Part shown: piece after piece, positions 2,844 to 54,557 of the stretch
Numbering within the stretch: position 1 is the first letter of the stretch
How the letters are laid out: each line of letters begins with the position of its first letter
DNA from: Bordetella parapertussis
Lineage (GTDB): Bacteria > Pseudomonadota > Gammaproteobacteria > Burkholderiales > Thiobacillaceae
DNA: 64,000 nucleotides
Direction of reading: 5' to 3'
Assembly: GCA_945890495.1 (NCBI GenBank)
Contig: CAMDCO010000002.1
Location: 1 to 64,000 of the forward strand
Translations under genes and position numbers: made by a program
Notes under the pieces: generated by a model
Told to the model about the DNA's origin: nothing
What the model saw: the letters and a program-made list of their open reading frames with translations, nothing else
The model's database searches: none

Positions 2844-2950
2844 AGGTCGCATTGTATTTACATATCAATGCGTTATTGCAATCCAACGGGGCCGTTCCAA
2901 ACCGCGAGGCGGCCCCGTGCACTCACGCCATCAGGCGTTTATTTGACTCC

Positions 2951-3179
2951 TGGTGATTGGTAGTGGATCTGGCCACATTACACATTTTGGCAACCACGGC
3001 GGCCATGGCCCATGTAGGGGCAGGCCCCCGTGCCTGCCCTAACGGTGAATGGGCAACCACAGGGGGGGTTGCCCCTACGAAAATCAGGCAAGCACAGGGT
3101 TCTCCCCCTCCCCTCCGCAATTCCTCCTCGCGGGTCCGTACGATGAATTGCACTACCCACTCGATTTCATATAGAGCCG
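2951..3179. repeat. dispersed palindromic GC-rich repeat (copy A)
   Basis: Near-identical to 38841-39102; core GTAGGGGCAGGCCCCCGTGCCTGCCC ... GGGCAACCACAGGGGGGGTTGCCCCTACG. Confidence 0.85.
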
Positions 3180-4611: not shown

Positions 4612-4775
4612 GTTATTTCCTCTCAATAAAATCAGTAAAGTCAGTTAGTTACCTTAACAGACCAACCCCTCTAGGGTCAGATGGCTTGCATTGTAAATAC
4701 CTGACGAATTTTGTCAAGTTTAGGAGATGTCTATCCGGTGATGGACTGATGCGACAAAGCCTGAAAAGCCTTTAA

Positions 4776-25772: not shown

Positions 25773-28700
25773 ATGCAAGCCGGTGCAGTCAACATCAAGC
25801 TCATGGCGGACATTGCCGATGTGCAGCGCAAGTTCGATGAGATGCAGCGCATGAGCCGTCAGGTGGCAAACAACATTGCTTCATCGTTTTCAGGGGTTGG
25901 CGCAAAAATTGGCGCAGCTTTGAGCGTTGGCGCTTTGGCGGCGTGGGTCAAATCCAGCGTTGACGCCATGGACGCCATGAATGATGTCAAAGAGCGCACA
26001 GGCCTTGCCACCAAAGAAATTGCAGGCTTGCAAGTCGCACTAAAAATGTCAGGCATGCAGGCCGAATCGCTTGAGGGCGCCATGAGCAAGCTGGCAAAGA
26101 ACATGGCCGCAGGCGATGCCGCATTTGCGGCCATGGGGCTGTCGGTCAAAAACACCGATGGAAGCCTGAAAAGCTCACGCCAAATGCTGGGCGAATTAGC
26201 TGATCAGTTTGCGGGCTATGAAGACGGCGCAGCCAAAGCCGCACTTGCGCAGGAATTGTTTGGCAAAAGCGGTGCAGAAATGATCCCGCTGCTCAATGGC
26301 GGCTCCAAAGCACTGGAAGAGTTTGATGCCATGGCTCAAAAGTTGGGCCTGACAATGGACGATCAAACTACCGCCAATGCTGCCAAATTCAATGACACGC
26401 TTGACCTGATTGGCATGGGCGTGCAAGGTGTTGGCCGTCAAGTTGCATCGCAGCTGCTGCCAACGCTTTCTGGTCTTGCAGACCAATTTTTTACAGCCAT
26501 GACCAAAGGCGACAACTTGAAAAAAATTGCCGACGCACTGGCAATTGCGCTCAAGTCGCTGTACGTGGTCGGCGTAGGCATTGTTGGTGCATTCAAAGCA
26601 GTTGGGGACACCTTGTATGCAGTTGGTGCCCAAGCCATCGCCATCCTTAAAGGCGACTTCAAAGGTGCGGTTGAGGCGGGCAATCGCTGGCAATCCGACA
26701 TGAAGGAAAACTGGACGAGCTCACTTGATTCGATCAAGGATGCCTGGAATGCTTCGGGCAGTGCGGGCATGGATGCCATGACCAACCAAGCCGCCGCCAT
26801 GCGTAAGGCGGCCCCATTGGTCGAGGACTACAAAAAACAGCAAGAGCTTGCAGCCAAAGCCGCAGAAAAAGCGGCTGAAGAGCAAAGAAAAATGGCCGAC
26901 AGCGGTGCCAAGCTGTATCAAAGTTTGACTCAGATTGACAGTGGTCTTTCAGGCGATTTTTTAGAAAAGTGGAATAGCCTCAATGCCGCCTACAAGGCAG
27001 GCAAGCTCACAGTTGATGAATTGACCGATGCCCAGCGGCTGCTGCTGGATCAGCAACCCTTCATGAAAAAAGCTGCCGAGGATCGCGCCAAGCTCGAAAA
27101 GCAAATCAATGACGAAATGGCAAAAACGCTGGGCGATGCTTGGAAACAGGTGGACGCCGTGGATGCTCAGGCCAAAGCGCAGGAAATGGCAAATGCCACC
27201 TACGGCCAAGGCAAATCAGCCCTGGCCGAATTGACTTTGGCTGAAATGGAAAACCAGTTGGCCGCCATAGAGGCCACAGAAAACATCATTCCGGGCTATG
27301 TGCAGGCGCTGGAGTCGCGCATTGATGCCCAAAAGCGTTTGATCAAAGCCATGAAAGACGGCGAAGTTTTGGAGGCCAATGACAAAACGGCCAAAAAAGC
27401 CGCCGAAGAATGGGAGCGCACCGCCAACAAGATCAACGACAGCATTGTGGACGCCCTGATGCGAGGCTTTGAGTCTGGCAAGGATTTCGCCAAAAACATG
27501 CGTGACACCATCGTCAACATGTTCAAAACGATGGTTTTGCGCCCGGTAATTCAAGCCATCATCAGCCCTGTTGGTGCCGGTGTTGCTTCTGCCTTTGGCG
27601 TACCAGGTGCACAGGCTGCCGGTGTTTCGGGCTCGTCGCTGGGCATGATTGGCACCATCAAAAGCATTTATGACACCGTGGTCGGCGGCTTTGCGGCTCT
27701 AGGCGATAAGGTGGCTTTTGCGGCCAATGACATTGGCGCATGGCTGGTCAACAACACAACAGGCGTTTTGAACCAAGCTGGGTCTTCATTGATGTCATCG
27801 GCTGGTGCCATTGGCACCGCTGCATCGTATGCGGGCGGCGCATTGGCAGGCTACGGCATCGGCACCGCCATCAGCGGCCAGTATGCCGCCTTTGGCAACA
27901 AAAACATTGCCACAGTGACCGGCACAGCCATTGGCGCTGTCATTGCTGGCCCCATTGGCGCGGCCATCGGCGGTGCCATTGGCGGCCTGGTCAATCGCGC
28001 CTTTGGGATGGGAGCCAAGGAAACACAGGATTACGGCCTGACGGGCCAGTTTTCTGCATTCGGTGCCAATGTGAGCCAATACAGCAAATGGCATCAAGAG
28101 GGCGGCTGGTTCCGGTCTGATCGCTCTGGCACCGACTATGCGGGCGTCAGCTCAGAGCTTGGGAAATTCCTCAACAGTGCAGTTGGCATGACGGCAGCGG
28201 CCACCAAAGCCTATGCAAGCGCCATTGGATTGAGCGCTGATGCCGTCAATGGGTTTTCGCAGTCAATCAATATCAGCCTCAAAGGCCTTGACGATGCAGC
28301 CAAGGAAAAGGCCATTGCAGCGGCCATCACTGGATTTGGTGACGCCATGGCTCAAACCGCCTATGGCGGCACCCTTGCCATGTTTGCAAAAGAGGGCGAA
28401 AGCGCCTCCGTGACATTGGCCCGACTTGGCAACAGTCTGATGACGGTCAACCAGGTGCTAGACACCCTAAATCAAAGCCTTTTGGCAACCAGTGCCATGG
28501 GTGCTGATGCAGCCAGCAAGTTGCTTGACCTGGTAGGCGGAGCCGATGCGTTTGCCACTTTGACCAGTGCTTACTATCAGGCCATCTACACCGAGGAAGA
28601 ACGGCTGGCAAAGACTCAACAACAGCTCACAAAGGCGTTTTCTGCCGCCTTTGGTGGCACGGCCTTGCCGCGCACTTTGGCAGCCTACAAAGCCCTTGTA

Positions 28701-30032
28701 GATGCTCAAGACCTCACCACCGAAGTTGGACGCCAGCAATATGCCGTTTTGTTGCAGTTGGCACCCGCATTTGGCGAAGTGACCAAAGCAGCCATGGCAA
28801 CCGCTGATGCGGCGCAAAAAGAGGCAGAAACAAAAATTGCAGCTTTGAGAGCCAGTGGCAAAAGCATCAGCGAATGGCTTGCGGCCTTGCGCATCAGCAC
28901 AGGTTCACCATCGGTGTCGATGTCGTCCGCGCGGACGCAATACCTGCAAACCCTCAATCTGGCCCGCGCCAATGACCAGTCAGCCCTGGGCTCCATCACG
29001 GGCATGGCCGACCAGTACATTTCCGCCGCCAAAGGGCAGGCCACTAGCAACGCGCAATTCGCGGCCATCGTGGCGCAAGTCAGCGCCGAGGTTTCTGGTT
29101 TGCCGGCGGTCAAGGGCTACCAGCAAGAGACGCTTGACGTGCTGTCATCCATCCGTGAAACCATTGGCCTTGTTGGAGACAGCATCAGCGAAGAGGTTTT
29201 CACGCTTGCGCGAACCACAGTCAAGGAATTCGCAAGACTTGATACCAACGTCGATGGACTTCTGACATTCGACGAATTGGCAAAAGGCCTCAAAGGCATT
29301 GCTACCGATCAGCAAATTGCAAATCTGATCAGCACTGTTGACCTCAATGGAGATGGTCAATTGAGCGCACTTGAGCTGGTCAATTCAGCCGTGGACACCG
29401 TTGGAAGTTACAGCAGCGGCACCATGGACAACACGGCGGATGCGCTCAAAGCATCGGCCAAACAAATCGAAGCGCTGGTGTTCATGAACAACGATGGCCT
29501 CATGGCTGTGTCGAAAAACACAGCGGCCAGCCTCGACTACTTGGCCCCGATGCGCGACTACCTCCGCAACATTGATGCCTCTACTGCCAAGACCGCTGCC
29601 AATCCGGTGGTTGTCAATCAATCAAGCGGCGGCGGACTGATTGGCAAGGTGCTGAGCTTTTTTGGGTTTGCATCGGGCGGCGTGTTTGGCGGACATGGCA
29701 TTTACAACACGCCAACACCATTCATGTTCGATGGCGGTCAACTTGGCGTGATGGGCGAAGCTGGCCCCGAGGCGGTCATGCCATTGGAGCGCATGGCCGA
29801 TGGCGCATTGGGCGTTCGCGCCTTGCCCAGTTACATCTACACCCAGCAAGGAAGCCCAGATCAGACGGCATATATGGCCGCTTTGGTGTCCGAAGTCAGT
29901 GCATTGCGATCCGAAGTCTCCGACCTTCGATCTGAAGCTCGCGCAACCGCTGTCAACACAGGCAAATCTCAGCGTTTGCTAGAGCGCGTGACGCAAAACG
30001 GCGATGCAATGCAAACAGTGGCGGTCGTTTAA
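25773..30032 (+). CDS. tape measure protein (1419 aa) with EF-hand-like motifs
   Basis: Long Ala/Gly-rich and coiled-coil protein between chaperone and tail-tip genes; DTNVDGLLTFDE and DLNGDGQLSALE. Confidence 0.9.
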   Translation: MQAGAVNIKLMADIADVQRKFDEMQRMSRQVANNIASSFSGVGAKIGAALSVGALAAWVKSSVDAMDAMNDVKERTGLATKEIAGLQVALKMSGMQAESLEGAMSKLAKNMAAGDAAFAAMGLSVKNTDGSLKSSRQMLGELADQFAGYEDGAAKAALAQELFGKSGAEMIPLLNGGSKALEEFDAMAQKLGLTMDDQTTANAAKFNDTLDLIGMGVQGVGRQVASQLLPTLSGLADQFFTAMTKGDNLKKIADALAIALKSLYVVGVGIVGAFKAVGDTLYAVGAQAIAILKGDFKGAVEAGNRWQSDMKENWTSSLDSIKDAWNASGSAGMDAMTNQAAAMRKAAPLVEDYKKQQELAAKAAEKAAEEQRKMADSGAKLYQSLTQIDSGLSGDFLEKWNSLNAAYKAGKLTVDELTDAQRLLLDQQPFMKKAAEDRAKLEKQINDEMAKTLGDAWKQVDAVDAQAKAQEMANATYGQGKSALAELTLAEMENQLAAIEATENIIPGYVQALESRIDAQKRLIKAMKDGEVLEANDKTAKKAAEEWERTANKINDSIVDALMRGFESGKDFAKNMRDTIVNMFKTMVLRPVIQAIISPVGAGVASAFGVPGAQAAGVSGSSLGMIGTIKSIYDTVVGGFAALGDKVAFAANDIGAWLVNNTTGVLNQAGSSLMSSAGAIGTAASYAGGALAGYGIGTAISGQYAAFGNKNIATVTGTAIGAVIAGPIGAAIGGAIGGLVNRAFGMGAKETQDYGLTGQFSAFGANVSQYSKWHQEGGWFRSDRSGTDYAGVSSELGKFLNSAVGMTAAATKAYASAIGLSADAVNGFSQSINISLKGLDDAAKEKAIAAAITGFGDAMAQTAYGGTLAMFAKEGESASVTLARLGNSLMTVNQVLDTLNQSLLATSAMGADAASKLLDLVGGADAFATLTSAYYQAIYTEEERLAKTQQQLTKAFSAAFGGTALPRTLAAYKALVDAQDLTTEVGRQQYAVLLQLAPAFGEVTKAAMATADAAQKEAETKIAALRASGKSISEWLAALRISTGSPSVSMSSARTQYLQTLNLARANDQSALGSITGMADQYISAAKGQATSNAQFAAIVAQVSAEVSGLPAVKGYQQETLDVLSSIRETIGLVGDSISEEVFTLARTTVKEFARLDTNVDGLLTFDELAKGLKGIATDQQIANLISTVDLNGDGQLSALELVNSAVDTVGSYSSGTMDNTADALKASAKQIEALVFMNNDGLMAVSKNTAASLDYLAPMRDYLRNIDASTAKTAANPVVVNQSSGGGLIGKVLSFFGFASGGVFGGHGIYNTPTPFMFDGGQLGVMGEAGPEAVMPLERMADGALGVRALPSYIYTQQGSPDQTAYMAALVSEVSALRSEVSDLRSEARATAVNTGKSQRLLERVTQNGDAMQTVAVV

Positions 30033-30041
30033 GGGATAGGC

Positions 30042-30926
30042 ATGAAAGTCATCAAGCCAACAACATTCACGCCATCCATGCTGATCAGCAGTAATGCTGT
30101 CGAGGTATATGCCGCCTACAGCGCTGTCACCAGCTATTCAAAAGACAATATCGTTGATTACGGCACGCGCCTCTACCAGAGCCTGGTCAACAATAACCTT
30201 GGCAATACGCCAAGCACTAGCCCACTGTATTGGCTTGATATTGGCCCAGACAATATCCATGCGATGTTTGACAACCAGATCAGCACATCCACGGCCAGCA
30301 CAACACCTCTGTCGGTTGTTTTCAAGCCGGGTATTTTTAACAGCCTGGCTCTGCTGGGACTCGTCGGCAACTCGATGAGCGTGACCGTGCGCGACGGTAC
30401 AGGCGGGCCAATCACGTATTCCGCCACATTTGCGCTGGATGGAACCATCATTTCAGATTGGTATCAGTATTTTTTCGAGCCATTTGTGCAGAAATCCGAA
30501 GTGGTGATGACGGACATTCCGCCATTCAGCAATTCAGAGGTGACGATTACGCTCACTGGCGGGTCAACAGTTCAGGTTGGCTTGTGCGGTTTTGGCACGT
30601 TCTATTTTCTTGGCGATGCTGAATATGGTGCGAATGTCGGGATTACGGATTACAGCCGCAAAGACACCGATGATTTTGGCATTACCACCTTTGTCCAGAG
30701 GGCGTACAGCAAGCGAATGAGTGCCAGATTGATGCTGGACACGGCGCAAATCAATCGCGTTCAAAGAATCTTGGCAGACATTCGGGCAAATCCATCCATC
30801 TGGATTGGCGCTGATGGGGACGATTACTTGCCAACACTGATGCTTGGCTATTACAGAGACTTCTCCATCGAAATTGCCTATCAAAACAAATCATTTTGTT
30901 CACTTGAAATTGAAGGATTGACCTGA
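30042..30926 (+). CDS. minor tail protein
   Basis: Between tape measure and tail fiber; YSAVTSYSKDNIVDYGTRLYQSLVNNNLGNTPSTSPLYWLDIGP carbohydrate-binding-like module. Confidence 0.65.
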   Translation: MKVIKPTTFTPSMLISSNAVEVYAAYSAVTSYSKDNIVDYGTRLYQSLVNNNLGNTPSTSPLYWLDIGPDNIHAMFDNQISTSTASTTPLSVVFKPGIFNSLALLGLVGNSMSVTVRDGTGGPITYSATFALDGTIISDWYQYFFEPFVQKSEVVMTDIPPFSNSEVTITLTGGSTVQVGLCGFGTFYFLGDAEYGANVGITDYSRKDTDDFGITTFVQRAYSKRMSARLMLDTAQINRVQRILADIRANPSIWIGADGDDYLPTLMLGYYRDFSIEIAYQNKSFCSLEIEGLT

Positions 30927-32425
30927 TGTCGATTACCGCACTTCCCACGCCGCCCAGCCGAACTGACCCGGCAAACTTTGCAACTCGTGCCGATGCGTTT
31001 ATGGCGGCATTGCCGACATTCGCCACCGAAGCCAATGCACTTCAAACCGATGTCAACGCCAAGCAAGTTGCCACAGCGTCCAGTGCCACTGAGGCCGCTG
31101 TCAGCCTGGCTGAAACGCAACTTGCATCCGAATCCGCCCTGGCCGCCGCGAACTTCAAAGGCCACTGGAACACTCTGACCGGAGCATTGAACAAACCTGC
31201 TTCTGTCATTCATGGCGGAAAATTCTGGATTCTGCTGAACAATTTGGCAAACGTTGCCACCAGCCAGCCCGGCGTCTCTTCCGATTGGGCGGAGTCACTT
31301 CAAGACGGCATCGTCACGACTGAAAAACTGGCTAATTCGGCTGTGACCTCAGACAAGTTGACCGCAGGTGCAGCCACAGGATCAAAGCTCGGCTCCGATG
31401 TGGTGGTGACCACTGGAAATCAATCCATTGCAGGCATCAAGACGTTTGGGTCATTCCCTGTTTTGCCTTCCACCACTGGAATTTTCATCAAGGCCGATTC
31501 AAGCGCGGTTGCGTTTACCAAAACTGGCAATGGTACCGCCAGCATCAAGGCGGGGACATTGGTTGACGTTGGCGGAAAGATGATTTTCTTTGCCTCCGAT
31601 ACGGCCATCACAATGCCAACGCTGACCGCCGGCAACGATTACGCTATTTGGGTCAACCCGGATGCATCCATTCAGGCCACATCTAGCTTCACTTCGCCGC
31701 CAGCAACCGGATCGCGCAAGATTGGTGGCTTTCATTACGCCCCAGGCGGTCATTCGGGCGCATCTGGTGGCGGCAACAGCACCCCACAAATCAACGCCTA
31801 TTCGATGTGGGATCTTAAATTTCGCCCAGCCTGCCCAGATCCGCGCGGCATGGCGCTGGTGGCTGATGGTTTCTGGTCTGACATCTACCTGCTTGGCGTC
31901 GATCACCTGACCAATGGCACCAGCAAATACAACGTCACCATTGCTGACGGCTCCAGCCCACCCAAAATCCCCACAAAATTTGGCGGAAACGGTACCAGTA
32001 CCTATGGATCGTTGACCTGGTGGGAGGCCACTGAAACTTTACGTCACCACGGAAAACGCGCACCAACTTATTCGGAATTTTCCGCTTTGGCGTTTGGAAC
32101 CACCGAAGCCACCTCCATTGGATCAGACCCCGGCTCCACCACCTGGAATGCCACCTACATCAGCAAATGGGGCATGGCGCAATCGTCCGGCAACATGTGG
32201 ATTTGGGGCGATGAATTTGGTGGCGGTGCAGCGGCAGCAGGTTGGACAGCCAACACAGGTGGTCGCGGCTCAACGTACCAAATGGAAAACGCCGTGATCT
32301 TTGGGGGCAACTGGGGTGAAGCGTCGAACTCCGGTTCGCGTTGCTCGTCCTGGTACTTCTCCCCCGCGAACTCGGTCAGCCTCATCGGGGCTCGCGGCGT
32401 CTGTGACCACTTGATTCTTGATTAA
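30926..32425 (+). CDS. tail fiber / DGR target protein with C-terminal C-type lectin (FGE-sulfatase-like) variable domain
   Basis: Fiber-like N-terminus; C-terminus WGMAQSSGNMWIWGDEFGGG...NAVIFGGNWGEASNSGSRCSSWYFSPANS...GARGVC; contains VR. Confidence 0.93.
   Translation: MSITALPTPPSRTDPANFATRADAFMAALPTFATEANALQTDVNAKQVATASSATEAAVSLAETQLASESALAAANFKGHWNTLTGALNKPASVIHGGKFWILLNNLANVATSQPGVSSDWAESLQDGIVTTEKLANSAVTSDKLTAGAATGSKLGSDVVVTTGNQSIAGIKTFGSFPVLPSTTGIFIKADSSAVAFTKTGNGTASIKAGTLVDVGGKMIFFASDTAITMPTLTAGNDYAIWVNPDASIQATSSFTSPPATGSRKIGGFHYAPGGHSGASGGGNSTPQINAYSMWDLKFRPACPDPRGMALVADGFWSDIYLLGVDHLTNGTSKYNVTIADGSSPPKIPTKFGGNGTSTYGSLTWWEATETLRHHGKRAPTYSEFSALAFGTTEATSIGSDPGSTTWNATYISKWGMAQSSGNMWIWGDEFGGGAAAAGWTANTGGRGSTYQMENAVIFGGNWGEASNSGSRCSSWYFSPANSVSLIGARGVCDHLILD
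32288..32406 (+). repeat. DGR variable repeat (VR)
   Basis: 119 bp aligned to TR with no gaps; 12 mismatches, all at TR adenines. Confidence 0.97.
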
Positions 32426-32441
32426 GGCGGCGACAGCCGCC
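32426..32441. promoter_or_regulatory. DGR target-site hairpin downstream of VR
   Basis: GGCGGC-GACA-GCCGCC directly after the TAA stop, absent after TR. Confidence 0.75.
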
Positions 32442-32453
32442 GCCACCTGACTG

Positions 32454-32834
32454 ATGACACCTGAACTGGATGCCACACAGACCTATGAGCCCATGGCCGT
32501 GGTCGAAAAGTACGAAGCCGTGATTTCGTACCTGTACCCTATTGCGCAAAACTTGCCGCGCAAGCATGGGGTGGTGCGCGACATGTTCATTCAGTGCCTC
32601 ATGGGTCAGGTGCAACTCTTTGTAGAGGCCGGGAAGTCCAGTCAGGTTTCCCGCCTTTACATCGCGGATGCGGGCATGTCGCATCTGCGATTTTGGCTGC
32701 GGTTTTTGTCTAGCGAAAGCGTCAAAGGAATCACACCACATCAAGTCAAAACCGCGCAGGCGTTGTTGGCTGAGGTGGGGAAAATTCTTGGAGCGTGGAT
32801 CGGAAAACAAAAACGCAGAGGGCAGCATGGGTAA
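32454..32834 (+). CDS. avd: Avd-like DGR accessory variability determinant
   Basis: 126 aa, helical/basic, between VR and TR; EKYEAVISYLYPIAQNLPRKHGVVRDMFIQCLMGQVQLFVEAGKS resembles the Avd/S23-like four-helix family. Confidence 0.88.
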   Translation: MTPELDATQTYEPMAVVEKYEAVISYLYPIAQNLPRKHGVVRDMFIQCLMGQVQLFVEAGKSSQVSRLYIADAGMSHLRFWLRFLSSESVKGITPHQVKTAQALLAEVGKILGAWIGKQKRRGQHG

Positions 32835-32835
32835 T

Positions 32836-32954
32836 AACGCCGTGATCTTTGGGGGCAACTGGGATGAAACGTCGAACTCCGGTTCGCGTTGCTCGAACTG
32901 GAACAACTCCCCCGCGAACTCGAACAACAACATCGGGGCTCGCGGCGTCTGTGA
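32836..32954 (+). repeat. DGR template repeat (TR)
   Basis: 119 bp, rich in AAC codons (10 in VR frame); starts just after the avd stop codon. Confidence 0.97.
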
Positions 32955-33130
32955 GGGCTGGAATTTTGTTTTGATGCTCCATCATCGTCACGGCATGATG
33001 GGCAGGCCATTTTCCATGTGGTCAGCCTTGCTGTCCTGCTTCGGCAAACACCTTTGGGGGTTCGGAAAAACGACGAGTAGCCACGGGAAACCGTGTGTGA
33101 AAGTCGTGTCCGGCTTGAAGGCAGGTTTGC

Positions 33131-34117
33131 ATGGGTAAAAAGTACAAGCGCCTGATTGATCGCGTTGCAGACATTGACAATCTGCGCGATGCACTTGCCA
33201 AGACATCATCAGGCAAGCGCATGACCTGGGGCTATCTTGAATTCAAGGAATACGCTGAATTAAATCTTGAGCGCCTACAGGCCGAAATCATCGATGGCAC
33301 ATGGCGGCAGGGTGGATTTCGTGAGTTCATCGTTTATGAACCCAAGCCGCGAAGCATCCATGCGCTGGAATTCAAGGATCGCGTGGCCCAGCACGCACTG
33401 GTAAACGTGATCGGCCCTATTTTTGAAAAAACCTTGATGCCCGGAACGTTTGCATGCCGTGAAGGAATGGGTACGCATGCGGGCGTCAGGCACGTCCAGG
33501 CTGGGCTGCGCCGCACTGGTGCCACGCACTTTCTGAAAACCGATTACAGCAAATTTTTTCCGAGCGTCGATCGCACCGTTTTGCATGAGCTGATCCGAAA
33601 AAAAATCAGTTGCCCGCAAACGCTGAGACTTATTGAGGCCATGTTGCCTCCACATGGCAAAGGTCTTCCAATTGGCAGTCTGACCAGCCAATTGTTTGCC
33701 AATGTTTATGGCGGTGAAGTCGATCGCTTCATCCATTTCAATCTGGGTGCAAAAGAGTGGACGCGCTACATGGACGACATTGTTGTGCTATCCAGTAACC
33801 CCTATGAATTGCGCCACTGGTTTGAGGATATTGAAAAATTCAGCATCGAGCGCCTGGGATTACGCATGAGCAAATGGCAAATCTCGCCCGTCACGCGCGG
33901 AATTAACTTTCTTGGCTATCGGATTTGGCCGCGCCATAAATTGATGCGCAAACAGTCCGTCACAACAGCAAAGCGAAAAATCAAGCGGTACATCCAAACA
34001 AATGACAGCGAATCACTCAACAAATTCTTATCCTCATGGCGCGGCCATGCGGCGCATGCCGACACCTGCAATTTATTCAATCACCTGGAGTCCACTTATG
34101 GAATCAAATGCAATTAA
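33131..34117 (+). CDS. DGR reverse transcriptase
   Basis: RYMDDIVVLS active site; GLPIGSLTSQLFANVYGGEVDRFI with the DGR-type IGxxxSQ motif. Confidence 0.97.
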   Translation: MGKKYKRLIDRVADIDNLRDALAKTSSGKRMTWGYLEFKEYAELNLERLQAEIIDGTWRQGGFREFIVYEPKPRSIHALEFKDRVAQHALVNVIGPIFEKTLMPGTFACREGMGTHAGVRHVQAGLRRTGATHFLKTDYSKFFPSVDRTVLHELIRKKISCPQTLRLIEAMLPPHGKGLPIGSLTSQLFANVYGGEVDRFIHFNLGAKEWTRYMDDIVVLSSNPYELRHWFEDIEKFSIERLGLRMSKWQISPVTRGINFLGYRIWPRHKLMRKQSVTTAKRKIKRYIQTNDSESLNKFLSSWRGHAAHADTCNLFNHLESTYGIKCN

Positions 34118-34349
34118 CTCGCGAGAAGATCTAGACGCGATTGCCGACACGGAAAAACACACTCAATTCATAAAGATGCTCGAAGGCAGCATTTTCAGAA
34201 TTGAAAAAGACAGCGTTGCCAAAAAATGGATCGCCATTGAAGACGTTTCAATCATCGAAAAATTTGGATTCACTCGGGATGATTTCCCGGATGCACAGCC
34301 ACCAGAGTTTCCTGAGTGGCGAGATGATCCAGAGCCGTTTTTTCAATAA
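34098..34349 (+). CDS. hypothetical protein overlapping the 3' end of the RT gene
   Basis: MESNAINSREDLDAIADTEKHTQFIKMLEGSIFRIEKDSVAKKWIAIEDVSIIEKFGFTRDDFPDAQPPEFPEW; 20-bp overlap with RT. Confidence 0.65.
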   Translation: MESNAINSREDLDAIADTEKHTQFIKMLEGSIFRIEKDSVAKKWIAIEDVSIIEKFGFTRDDFPDAQPPEFPEWRDDPEPFFQ

Positions 34350-34374
34350 TCCGCAAATAACAGTAGAGGCATAA

Positions 34375-34773
34375 ATGGCTGAGCCAGCTACCACATCTGC
34401 CGCCGCTGTCACCATGGTGGCTGCTACAGCTTCGGTGCCGTCATTGATCGCTTTTGGCGTCCCGCTGGGCCTTCGCCCGGATGTGTTGCTGGCCGGTTTC
34501 GCTGGTTCGCTGGTCGCCATCATTTTGCTCAATAGCGTCCCATCCACCGGAGATACCTGGCAGCACTTGATCAGTACCACATTGCGGCGCATGGCCGTGG
34601 TGCTTGCCAGCGCCTTGACAGCTGGTTATTTGACGCCCATGGCCTTGATGGTTGGCAACATGCCAGACTCACTTTTTCTTGGCGGCGCTTTTGCCGTTGG
34701 TGCCGGTGCGCAGCATGTTTTGCGCACCGCCATCATTCGCTTTGGCTCTGTTAAGTCTGCCGGGAGCATCTGA
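34375..34773 (+). CDS. holin-like membrane protein
   Basis: Three or more hydrophobic segments, lysis-module position. Confidence 0.55.
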   Translation: MAEPATTSAAAVTMVAATASVPSLIAFGVPLGLRPDVLLAGFAGSLVAIILLNSVPSTGDTWQHLISTTLRRMAVVLASALTAGYLTPMALMVGNMPDSLFLGGAFAVGAGAQHVLRTAIIRFGSVKSAGSI

Positions 34774-34774
34774 C

Positions 34775-35098
34775 ATGGAAACCATCATGCAATGTGTGCA
34801 CTGGATGGCGGCCATGATTGTTTTGGCCGAAGGTCTCAACAAGCTGGAGCGCACCGCACCATTCAGGCCCGGCATTGATGTGCGCACGCGCATCGTTGAT
34901 GGCCTCAAGGCCTTGGCATGGTGTCTGCTGGCAATTGGCGCAGGTGGTGCGGTCATTGCCCCGGCGCTCCCGTTGCTGGGCATCGACCAAATCGCAGCCG
35001 GGACATTGATGCGCGTGGAGCGACCAACACTGGCTGAAACGGCGGTCATGACCGGCTTTGCCGTGCTGATCATCCGAACCCGCATCAAAGAGGGCTGA
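34775..35098 (+). CDS. small phage membrane protein (lysis region)
   Basis: Hydrophobic segments; ATG at 34775. Confidence 0.5.
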   Translation: METIMQCVHWMAAMIVLAEGLNKLERTAPFRPGIDVRTRIVDGLKALAWCLLAIGAGGAVIAPALPLLGIDQIAAGTLMRVERPTLAETAVMTGFAVLIIRTRIKEG

Positions 35099-35101
35099 CC
35101 C

Positions 35102-35545
35102 ATGAAGCTGACAGTTTTGCGCAGCCCAAGCCATGGCGGTGCCACCATTGGCAAGCTCTACATTGACGGCGCTTTCAGCTGCCACACGCTGGAAGATGAA
35201 GTGCGGGAAATTCCCGGACAACCCGTCCATGAGTGGAAAATCAAAGGCAGCACAGCCATTCCATCGGGCATTTATCGCGTGGAGTTGCAAGACTCGCCGC
35301 GCTTTGGCCGCGACACTTTGACGCTTATTAACGTGCCTGGCTTTGAGTTCATCCGTATCCATGCAGGCAATACAGCACAAGACACCGAAGGTTGTCTGCT
35401 GCTTGGCATGCGGGCCACTGATGTCAGTTTGGTGGGTGGTACCAGCCGGCCTGCCGTGGAGCTGGTCAAAGCCAAAGTAAAGGCGGCCATCAAGCGCGGG
35501 GATGGCGTTGAAATTCACATCCAAAACCCCACGGAGATTGCCTGA
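35102..35545 (+). CDS. DUF5675 family protein, putative lysis enzyme
   Basis: GKLYIDGAFSCHTLEDEVRE...AIPSGIYRVEL...FEFIRIHAGNTAQDTEGCLLLG. Confidence 0.8.
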   Translation: MKLTVLRSPSHGGATIGKLYIDGAFSCHTLEDEVREIPGQPVHEWKIKGSTAIPSGIYRVELQDSPRFGRDTLTLINVPGFEFIRIHAGNTAQDTEGCLLLGMRATDVSLVGGTSRPAVELVKAKVKAAIKRGDGVEIHIQNPTEIA

Positions 35546-36048
35546 TGCCATTTTTTGCAGCCGTGCCGTGGCGATCAATGGCCGTTCTGGGCGTTTTTTT
35601 GCTAGGGGTGTGGCTTGGGTACCAGTGGCATGCAGGAATGGCCGCAAAGGCCCAAATTGCAGCGCATGCAGAGGCAGAAAAAAACAGGCAAGCCATTCAG
35701 GATATAGCCGACCAGCGGGCCATCGGACACGCCGAGCGCATTCGCACCCTCAACACCCAACTTGGAGCCGCCCATGCGCAAATTTCCCAGCTCACTCGCC
35801 GCGATTGCCTTGACCCTGGCACTGTCGGCATGCTCAACACCATCGGCCCCGCCTTGCCAGCCGTTGCCAGCCAATCTGAGAATTCGCCCCCAGCCCCTGC
35901 CGCCAATTCAGGCCACGGGCTCCGATTCAGCACCAGTCGAGACCTTGCCGAGCAAATAGCCGTCTGCCGGGCTGCACACACTGAGCTGGCCGATCAGCTC
36001 AATGCCATCTTGGACATTGAAGAGGCCAGACATGCGCAAAAGCCCTGA
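35545..36048 (+). CDS. Rz-like i-spanin
   Basis: N-terminal TM then helical periplasmic domain; lysis cassette position. Confidence 0.7.
   Translation: MPFFAAVPWRSMAVLGVFLLGVWLGYQWHAGMAAKAQIAAHAEAEKNRQAIQDIADQRAIGHAERIRTLNTQLGAAHAQISQLTRRDCLDPGTVGMLNTIGPALPAVASQSENSPPAPAANSGHGLRFSTSRDLAEQIAVCRAAHTELADQLNAILDIEEARHAQKP
35774..35959 (+). CDS. Rz1-like o-spanin lipoprotein nested in Rz
   Basis: MRKFPSSLAAIALTLALSACSTPSAPPCQPLPANLRIRPQPLPP: lipobox and Pro-rich, alternate frame inside Rz. Confidence 0.75.
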   Translation: MRKFPSSLAAIALTLALSACSTPSAPPCQPLPANLRIRPQPLPPIQATGSDSAPVETLPSK

Positions 36049-36214
36049 CCAGGATGTTGGCGATTGGCGCAAAGAAAACGGAAAAAAGCGCCTCAAGCAA
36101 CTGATCGAGCGCAAGACTGGAGCCAGTCGCGCCGAAATGCGTGAACTCATGGAGCGCTATGAGCGCGAAGGCGGACGCCTGGATGAGCTGGAGCCGCCGC
36201 CACGCATCGATTGA
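36032..36214 (+). CDS. small basic phage protein
   Basis: MRKSPDQDVGDWRKENGKKRLKQLIERKTGASRAEMRELMERYE. Confidence 0.45.
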   Translation: MRKSPDQDVGDWRKENGKKRLKQLIERKTGASRAEMRELMERYEREGGRLDELEPPPRID

Positions 36215-37299
36215 TCAAGCTGCGCGGCTTGCTGGCAAACACCCTTGATCCACGGCCATTCGGCATACTTGTCCCCCGTTTGCTCAATGTGGGTGTATCG
36301 CCGCAAAGAAACCCAGCTTCGGTGCCCTGAAACGCATGCCACCTGGGGGATGGTCTTACCAAGCTCAAACAACCTGGAAACACCGTCATGCCTCAGGTCA
36401 TGAAACCGGATGTCAACAATGCCAAGCACCTTGCATGCGCGGGTGAAATATGAGCTGATCGTTTTGGATTGGTAGGGGAAAATGAATTTCCCGGTTCGCG
36501 GCTGCAACTGGATGATGGCCATGGCCTCGGGCGGGATGTCCACGCGCACATCGTTGCCCATTTTTTCGCCGGGGTGTTTCATGTTGCGCACGATGATGGT
36601 CGATTTGGCCTCATCAAGATCGGCCCACTCCAACAGCGTGATTTCCTCTTGCCGTCTGGTGCTGAAAATGCCAAAACCGACCAGGTGGCGCATGGGGTAG
36701 GCCTTGGCCCCGTTCTTGGCCTCGTACAGCTCAAAATGCGCCATCAGCTTGTCCAGCTCCTCGATGCTTGGCCGCTTGTCTCGGCGGCTGGATCGACCAA
36801 TCACGCCCAGCCTGTCTGCCACCGTCCTGGCGTCATCCATGGCCTGTTTGTCGAGTGGATAGCCCCACGCTGGCCGTGCAATCGCAAAAACAGAGGCCAA
36901 GTGGCTCATGTAGTTGCCAGCGGTGGAGGGGTGTCCACCGATGGATTTGGCAAAGGCCATCAGCTCAGGGCTGCCAATTTCGGAGCAACGCATCCTGCCG
37001 ATGGGCGCGGCCTTGATGGTTGCCAGCACCTGTTTTTTGGTTTTGCCGTAGTTGCGGCGCGATTCCTTGATGTATTTGTCGATCACATCGGCAAGGAACG
37101 GATCGCCCGACCTGGCCGCATCCATGCCGCCTGGCTGAGCCAGCTCCCGTTCGCGCAACTTCAACCAGGCACTGGCAGCTGGATGCCTGTCAAAGGTTTG
37201 GGACTCGGTGTGCACCACCTTGCCGCCCACCTTGATCCTGATCTGGGCCAGATAGGCGCTGGAGCCGTCCTTGCGCTTTCGTGCTGTAATGGTTCCCAT
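36157..37299 (-). CDS. int: tyrosine recombinase / phage integrase
   Basis: C-terminal RHLVGFGIFSTRRQEEI, FHDLRHDGVSRL, GHRSWVSLRRYTH catalytic signature; start likely MGTITARKRKDGS. Confidence 0.92.
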   Translation of the reverse strand: MGTITARKRKDGSSAYLAQIRIKVGGKVVHTESQTFDRHPAASAWLKLRERELAQPGGMDAARSGDPFLADVIDKYIKESRRNYGKTKKQVLATIKAAPIGRMRCSEIGSPELMAFAKSIGGHPSTAGNYMSHLASVFAIARPAWGYPLDKQAMDDARTVADRLGVIGRSSRRDKRPSIEELDKLMAHFELYEAKNGAKAYPMRHLVGFGIFSTRRQEEITLLEWADLDEAKSTIIVRNMKHPGEKMGNDVRVDIPPEAMAIIQLQPRTGKFIFPYQSKTISSYFTRACKVLGIVDIRFHDLRHDGVSRLFELGKTIPQVACVSGHRSWVSLRRYTHIEQTGDKYAEWPWIKGVCQQAAQLDQSMRGGGSSSSRRPPSRS

Positions 37300-37345
37300 G
37301 GTTTTCGGTGCAACATTGAAAATTTGTAGCACTGAAATGTAGCAC

Positions 37346-37359
37346 TGTTGCACCAAATG
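37346..37359. promoter_or_regulatory. candidate integrase arm-type site TGTTGCACCAAATG
   Basis: Identical to 4809-4822; preceded by two related TGTAGCACTG motifs. Confidence 0.5.
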
Positions 37360-37439
37360 AGCCAAAACAATCAGAAATGACATTAAACAAGACAGACAAA
37401 AAGCCAGCGCAAGCCATTGATTTTGAAGAAAAACCTTTG

Positions 37440-37452
37440 AAATCAACGATGT
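37440..37452 (+). repeat. candidate attR core AAATCAACGATGT
   Basis: Exact match to 4776-4788. Confidence 0.65.
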
Positions 37453-37560
37453 GGCGGTTGAGCATTGCGCCCATTAGCGCTTGGGTAGCACAACACTCCG
37501 CACAACACTCGCACATACCACTCAGCAATGAGCGCTTAGCGCCAAGGCGGCGCCAGCGTA

Positions 37561-38716: not shown

Positions 38717-38840
38717 CGCCGCCCTTCTTCCAAGATTGAGGCCACAGGATAGTGAGGCCACTGGGCAATTGCAAGGCTCGCCGTCAGGGTGGGCGGGTGA
38801 GACCCGTAGCGCCCGTAGCGGCTATAGAGAAAGGGGCTCT

Positions 38841-39102
38841 TGGTGATTGGTAGTGGAACTGGCCACATTACACCTTTTGGCAACCACGACGGCCATGGCC
38901 CATGTAGGGGCAGGCCCCCGTGCCTGCCCTAACGGTACATGGGCAACCACAGGGGGTTGCCCCTACGAAAATCAGGCAAGCACAGGGGGGGGTGCCCCTA
39001 CGAAAATTAGGCAAGCACAGGGTTATCCCCCTCTCCTCCGCAATTCCTCCTCGCGGGTCCGTACGATGAATTGCACTACTCACTCGATTTCATATAGAGC
39101 CG
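38841..39102. repeat. dispersed palindromic GC-rich repeat (copy B) with internal tandem duplication
   Basis: Same family and orientation as 2951-3179; extra approx. 33 bp from duplicated TGCCCCTACGAAAATYAGGCAAGCACAGGG. Confidence 0.85.
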
Positions 39103-54112: not shown

Positions 54113-54557
54113 TTTAACGCGCATTGCGCCGATCGGTCCTCTGTAGGGGCAGGTCCCTGTACCTGCCCTGGCGGTGCATGGGCAACCACGGGGGGTTGCC
54201 CCTACGAAGAGATACACCGCGCCCCCGTAGGGGCAGGCCCCTGTGCCATGCCCTCGTCTGATTAACGCGCATTACGCCGATCGGTCCCCCGTAGGGGCAG
54301 GTCCCTGTACCTGCCCTGGCGGCGCATGGGCAACCACGGGGGGGTTGCCCCTACGAAGAGACACACCGCGCCCCCGTAGAGGCAGGCCCCTGTGCATGCC
54401 CTCGTCTGATTAACGCGCATTGCGCCAATCAATCCCCCGTAGGGGCAGGTCCCTGTACCTGCCCTGGCGGTGCATGGGCAACCACGGGGGGTTGCCCCTA
54501 CGAAGAGACACACCGCGCCACCGTAGGGGCAGGCCCCTGTGCCTGCCCTCGTCTGAC
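54113..54557. repeat. tandem array: three copies of a 148-bp unit
   Basis: TAACGCGCATT at 54115, 54263 and 54411 (148-bp period); shares the GGGGCAGG...CCTGCCC and GGGCAACC...GGTTGCCC core with 2951-3179 and 38841-39102. Confidence 0.9.

Follow-up and report, generated by a model that had tools for sequence, protein, structure and literature searches.

A complete prophage-borne diversity-generating retroelement of the BPP-1 type, in all probability active at least until recently

The diversity-generating retroelement (DGR) of phage BPP-1 (mtd-avd-TR-brt, NC_005357) is a well-studied model. The VR of its receptor-binding protein Mtd sets the tropism of the phage, the role of the IMH and IMH* segments is known from work on this system, and the hairpins of phage DGRs were found to carry a GRNA loop on a stem of 7-10 bp (PMC3240598). 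More than 30,000 DGRs have been described by Roux et al. (PMC8144416), including phage clades with widespread activity whose targets are mostly tail proteins. The DGR described here therefore adds a clear new example to a system whose mechanism is already well known.

All parts of a BPP-1-type cassette are present in the window, i.e. the whole stretch of 64,000 nucleotides analysed (Table 1). The order target-avd-TR-RT, which the initial annotation had likened to that of the BPP-1 DGR, is borne out by the coordinates and by the homology of each part. We are highly confident that this is a complete DGR of the BPP-1 (Brt/Avd/Mtd) type which was active at least until recently.

Table 1. Positions in the window of the prophage and of the parts of its DGR, with the supporting evidence.
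Feature	Position	Strand	Evidence
Prophage carrying the cassette, ~32.7 kb	4740..37474		Gene content; att junctions; unoccupied site in congeneric genomes (two)
Target gene, Mtd-type receptor-binding protein, 499 aa	30926..32425	+	phmmer to Mtd; Pfam mtd_2nd; phrog_11262; AF2 model
VR, adenine-diversified part, C-terminal CLec of the target	32288..32406	+	12/12 mismatches at TR A; 17/17 differences to sibling L003 at TR A
3' part of VR IMH, VR and TR differing independently of adenine (6/14)	32407..32420	+	Comparison with TR and BPP-1
DNA hairpin/cruciform after the target stop codon, GGCGGC-GACA-GCCGCC (second register, 7 bp, to 32444)	32426..32441	+	z -4.4 as ssDNA; similar hairpins in relatives; GRNA rule
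avd accessory protein, 126 aa	32454..32834	+	NCBIfam NF033474; Pfam bAvd; phrog_3206
TR, 119 bp; homology runs on through IMH* to 32968	32836..32954	+	VR/BPP-1 comparison; all 119 bp identical in L003
Spacer part of the DGR RNA, Rfam Phage_DGR	32976..33114	+	RF03022, full model 1-127; spacer identical in L003
DGR reverse transcriptase, 328 aa	33131..34117	+	phrog_1423 E 1e-114; 8ub7_A E 4e-135; 61% to Brt; tree
Tyrosine integrase, right end of the prophage	36157..37446	-	PF00589; phrog_1

The reading frame of the reverse transcriptase (RT) is intact and its catalytic motif undamaged: YMDD is found at residue 213 (nt 33767), and the DGR-type IGxxxSQ motif, which had been noticed together with it, reads IGSLTSQ. 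Across its entire length the protein is 61% identical to BPP-1 Brt, and all 328 of its 328 residues were aligned to the solved BPP-1 DGR RT (8ub7_A, E 4e-135). The proposed comparison with DGR RT families gave phrog_1423 (E 1e-114). In a maximum-likelihood tree the RT was grouped with Brt in a clade of 23 rows (support 100/99), outside of which the distant chromosomal RTs fall. An assignment to group II intron or retron RTs was rejected on the basis of this placement and of scores below the respective cut-offs (TIGR04416, 101 bits, cut-off 300; retron St85, 49.5 bits, cut-off 235). The Avd-like ORF exceeds the curated cut-off of NF033474 (105.5 bits, cut-off 80) and additionally matches Pfam bAvd and phrog_3206. 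In many related DGRs the RT frame is open for about 200 codons further upstream, through spacer and TR, resulting in open frames of 530-640 aa (L014, L016, L022, L028, L029, L047, L089 and others); the open frame in the window comprises 332 aa.

Recomputed from the raw sequence, VR and TR form a repeat pair of 119 bp without gaps at an offset of 548. Within the cassette they differ at 12 positions, each of them at one of the 27 adenines of TR, and none of the 92 non-adenine positions of TR is changed in VR (hypergeometric P = 1.8e-9). The substituted adenines, replaced by T (6), G (4) or C (2), all lie in codon position 1 or 2 and lead to eight residue changes in the target (D464G, T466A, N475S, N477Y, N478F, N484V, N485S, N486L). 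No TR codon can be converted to a stop codon by an A-to-N change. The coordinates, the counts and the residue changes of the initial annotation were reproduced throughout. Its repeat extent of 119 bp applies to the adenine-restricted part but not to the end of the repeat, as comparison with BPP-1 extends the homology through the IMH/IMH* segment to 32420 and 32968. The repeat had been ended at 119 bp because the IMH/IMH* difference begins there, with 6 of 14 bp mismatched independently of adenine. VR and TR of BPP-1 likewise differ within this segment. The GC run of the IMH is interrupted by one T in the window cassette, compared to (GC)14 in BPP-1. The host genome assembly, about 81% complete, contains one VR and one TR; no second copy of either was found.

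The hairpin following the target stop codon was folded as ssDNA (z -4.4). Its GACA loop conforms to the GRNA tetraloop rule; the stem comprises 6 bp in this register, slightly below the published range, and 7 bp with a loop of 5 nt in the alternative one. Similar hairpins at a similar distance behind VR are present in most of 72 related loci. Between TR and RT (spacer 32955-33130), the full model of RF03022 was matched with 103 bits (gathering threshold 50), so that by covariance model a structured RNA spacer adjoins TR as in other DGRs.

A natural record of the action of the DGR is provided by L003, an IMG/VR contig carrying a fragment of a sibling phage from another sample, which is gapless and colinear with the window over 4,355 bp (95.9% nucleotide identity). 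TR (0/119 differences) and the TR-RT spacer (0/176) are identical in both phages, and avd (5/381) and RT (9/987) show about 99% identity. VR, compared over 107 positions, shows 17 differences, and all of these are at TR adenines (17 of the 24 adenine sites changed, none of the 83 remaining sites; Fisher P = 1.5e-14). Accordingly, dN reached 0.24 in VR (dS 0.04) compared to 0.003-0.004 in avd and RT. This corresponds, between two natural phages, to the population sequencing that had been proposed as a check, with changes in VR confined to TR adenines and an unaltered TR. The natural siblings agree with a transfer in one direction. What these sequences record is activity of the DGR at some time since divergence from L003, which may extend to the current lysogen.

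Two further IMG/VR contigs, L004 and L005, show 81-82% nucleotide identity to the window over 10 kb, cassette included, and carry additional VR alleles together with nearly the same TR. In L003-L005 TR is identical to that of the window or has 2 differences, and the VR alleles differ from the window VR at TR adenines. Of 86 related loci, 72 possess a VR/TR pair with adenine bias, arranged in the same order. When the mismatches of about 65 related loci, made non-redundant, were pooled, 896 of 962 fell on A, a value that is supportive only, because the loci had been accepted by an adenine-bias filter. The divergence between L003 and the window (32300-36654) is patchy: dS amounts to 0.03-0.05 in avd and RT and to 0.30-0.41 in the genes at 34375-35545, and divergence is low again near 35500-35900. 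This suggests recent block recombination including the DGR cassette.

Most TR adenines are located in AAC codons, so that relaxed selection on these codons would mimic an adenine bias if VR and TR were an ordinary duplication that has drifted, the bias arising from chance or from codon selection. Such an origin, already very unlikely from the sibling comparison, is extremely improbable: differences outside of adenines are lacking both in the cassette (0/92) and between the siblings (0/83), TR itself is unchanged, and the DGR RT, Avd and RNA directly adjoin the repeats. VR and TR are a DGR pair.

It might also be that the cassette was silenced recently, its parts still being recognizable while homing has stopped in the prophage of the window. 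The single VR in the assembly, the somewhat short hairpin stem and the T in the GC run of the IMH would be in line with this. However, relatives with diversified VRs possess the same short stem and the same T-interrupted IMH, the ORFs for RT, avd and target are intact, RT and avd are under purifying selection (dN/dS about 0.07-0.14), and VR differs at the 17 adenine sites from that of a sibling with identical TR. We regard recent silencing as very improbable and a DGR active at least until recently as the appropriate reading.

The biochemical steps of retrohoming, including RNA expression, cDNA synthesis and RT dependence, can be outlined from the work on BPP-1 and from homology. Transcription would yield an RNA that covers TR together with the structured spacer, and the RT-Avd complex would copy TR to cDNA with errors at adenines. 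The mutated cDNA would then take the place of VR in the 3'-terminal part of the Mtd-type gene (mutagenic retrohoming). The direction of transfer would be set by the IMH/IMH* mismatches, with help from the hairpin that follows the stop codon, and TR would never be overwritten. The expected outcome is a tail-tip protein with a CLec face variable at 12-13 positions, presumably for binding to changing host receptors.

The target gene begins at 30926, upstream of the interval 32288-34117 to which the element had been assigned. Residues 147-499 of its product match Mtd in a phmmer search (E 3e-124) with about 59% identity over residues 173-499. Matches to Pfam mtd_2nd and to the tail protein family phrog_11262 were also detected, as well as a weak BppL_N motif at 159-174. 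An AF2 model of residues 175-499 (mean pLDDT 82) has 1yu0 (Mtd-P1) as its best PDB match (TM 0.91 (TMq), rmsd 2.1). The Mtd intermediate and CLec domains occupy residues 185-499. Residues 1-184 form a non-Mtd N-terminus unrelated to Mtd residues 1-51, and the N-terminal beta-prism of Mtd is absent from the target. As judged by alignment and model, the target is a homologue of Mtd in its head only, and VR lies in its C-terminal domain of predicted CLec fold. In the TR of BPP-1, 12 codons contain adenine (Mtd residues 344, 346-348, 350, 357, 359, 360, 364, 366, 368 and 369), and all of them align to adenine-bearing codons of the window TR, with residue 485 as one extra. The "C-type lectin-like tip" of the initial annotation was correct and is made exact by the homology to Mtd. 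Its "tail fiber" is a loose term for what is an Mtd-type receptor-binding protein with a foreign N-terminus, because here the Mtd head is mounted on an anchor other than that of Mtd, and the phage possesses a tape measure protein and a major tail protein.

Among 47 complete related targets the modules preceding the same Mtd head are of at least 14 unrelated kinds (23-840 aa), and the N-terminus of the BPP-1 type occurs in only 6 of the 47. The joint between N-terminus and head lies at nearly the same junction across the related targets (L004-L083; window 30926-31480). Somewhat in favour of the idea, we propose that the diversified Mtd head and avd-TR-RT together constitute a portable receptor-sampling unit, spliced at one nearly fixed junction, just before the intermediate domain, onto unrelated tail anchors. 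If so, phages with different tails would gain a ready-made, self-diversifying receptor-binding tip. The common head on many unrelated anchors marks where such a tip can join other tails. A man-made equivalent, a laboratory T7-Mtd chimera, is present in the database (LR745708).

A benefit through switching of host range or receptor may be expected from BPP-1 and from homology. Alternatively, a working DGR might diversify this protein for a different role, e.g. escape from receptor masking in one host or surface adhesion. This appears unlikely, given the close homology of the target to Mtd, whose VR determines tropism in BPP-1 (PMC3240598), and the place of the target gene between tail genes and lysis genes.

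The cassette had been described as complete and prophage-borne, and both hold. The prophage encodes repressor, primase, terminase, portal, capsid, major tail protein, tape measure protein, spanin and integrase, and its two junctions are exact: CTATCCGGT is followed by GATGGACTG at 4739/4740 and TTGCGCCCAT by TAGCGCTTG at 37474/37475. The unoccupied site CTATCCGGTTAGCGCTT is present in two congeneric genomes, and the joined phage ends were found in L005. A direct-repeat search for att sites gave short matches only, and the junction was obtained from the relatives instead. Copies of a 266-bp repeat at 2947 and 38837 were rejected as att sites, as they belong to a dispersed repeat with more copies at 54 kb. 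Of this family, one copy lies on either side of the prophage (2947-3179, 38837-39102), and the copies at 54 kb form a tandem set (54114-54556). In L004 the insertion is in dusA, and the integrase end runs straight into the DusA reading frame (L004 10300-11299). The prophage of the window retains a replacement start for dusA (WRLSIAP), yet its neighbours on the two sides are other genes (4740, 37474; compare L005 10300-10400). None of five genomes of the genus, which are incomplete, contains a DusA above the TIGR00742 cut-off; in hosts lacking dusA the phage may therefore turn to a secondary site. At residues 1153-1203 of the tape measure protein (25773-30032), a calcium-binding pair of EF-hand-like type scores close to the Pfam cut-off.

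Gene P12026_20 of Marinomonas phage P12026 shares with the target the Mtd domain, the similarity extending into the N-terminal region (35% over 67-498), and this phage, too, has a major tail protein. It differs in that the annotation up to 6 kb from P12026_20 includes no reverse transcriptase. With the BPP-1 DGR the cassette shares the gene order, an RT of the same length and 61% identity, Avd, the Mtd head (about 59% identity), the RNA spacer family, IMH/IMH*, a hairpin with GRNA loop and the residue positions of all 12 diversifiable codons. In contrast to BPP-1, an unrelated N-terminus of 184 residues replaces the beta-prism of Mtd, the tape-measure/major-tail module of the phage differs from the structural set of BPP-1, the hairpin stem comprises 6 instead of 8 bp, a T lies inside the GC run of the IMH, and residue 485 is diversifiable in addition, where the TR of BPP-1 has the Ala codon GCG (Mtd 367). 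With its complete BPP-1-type DGR in another phage background and a sibling recording the action of the element, the prophage offers a useful natural comparison to the one well-studied model.
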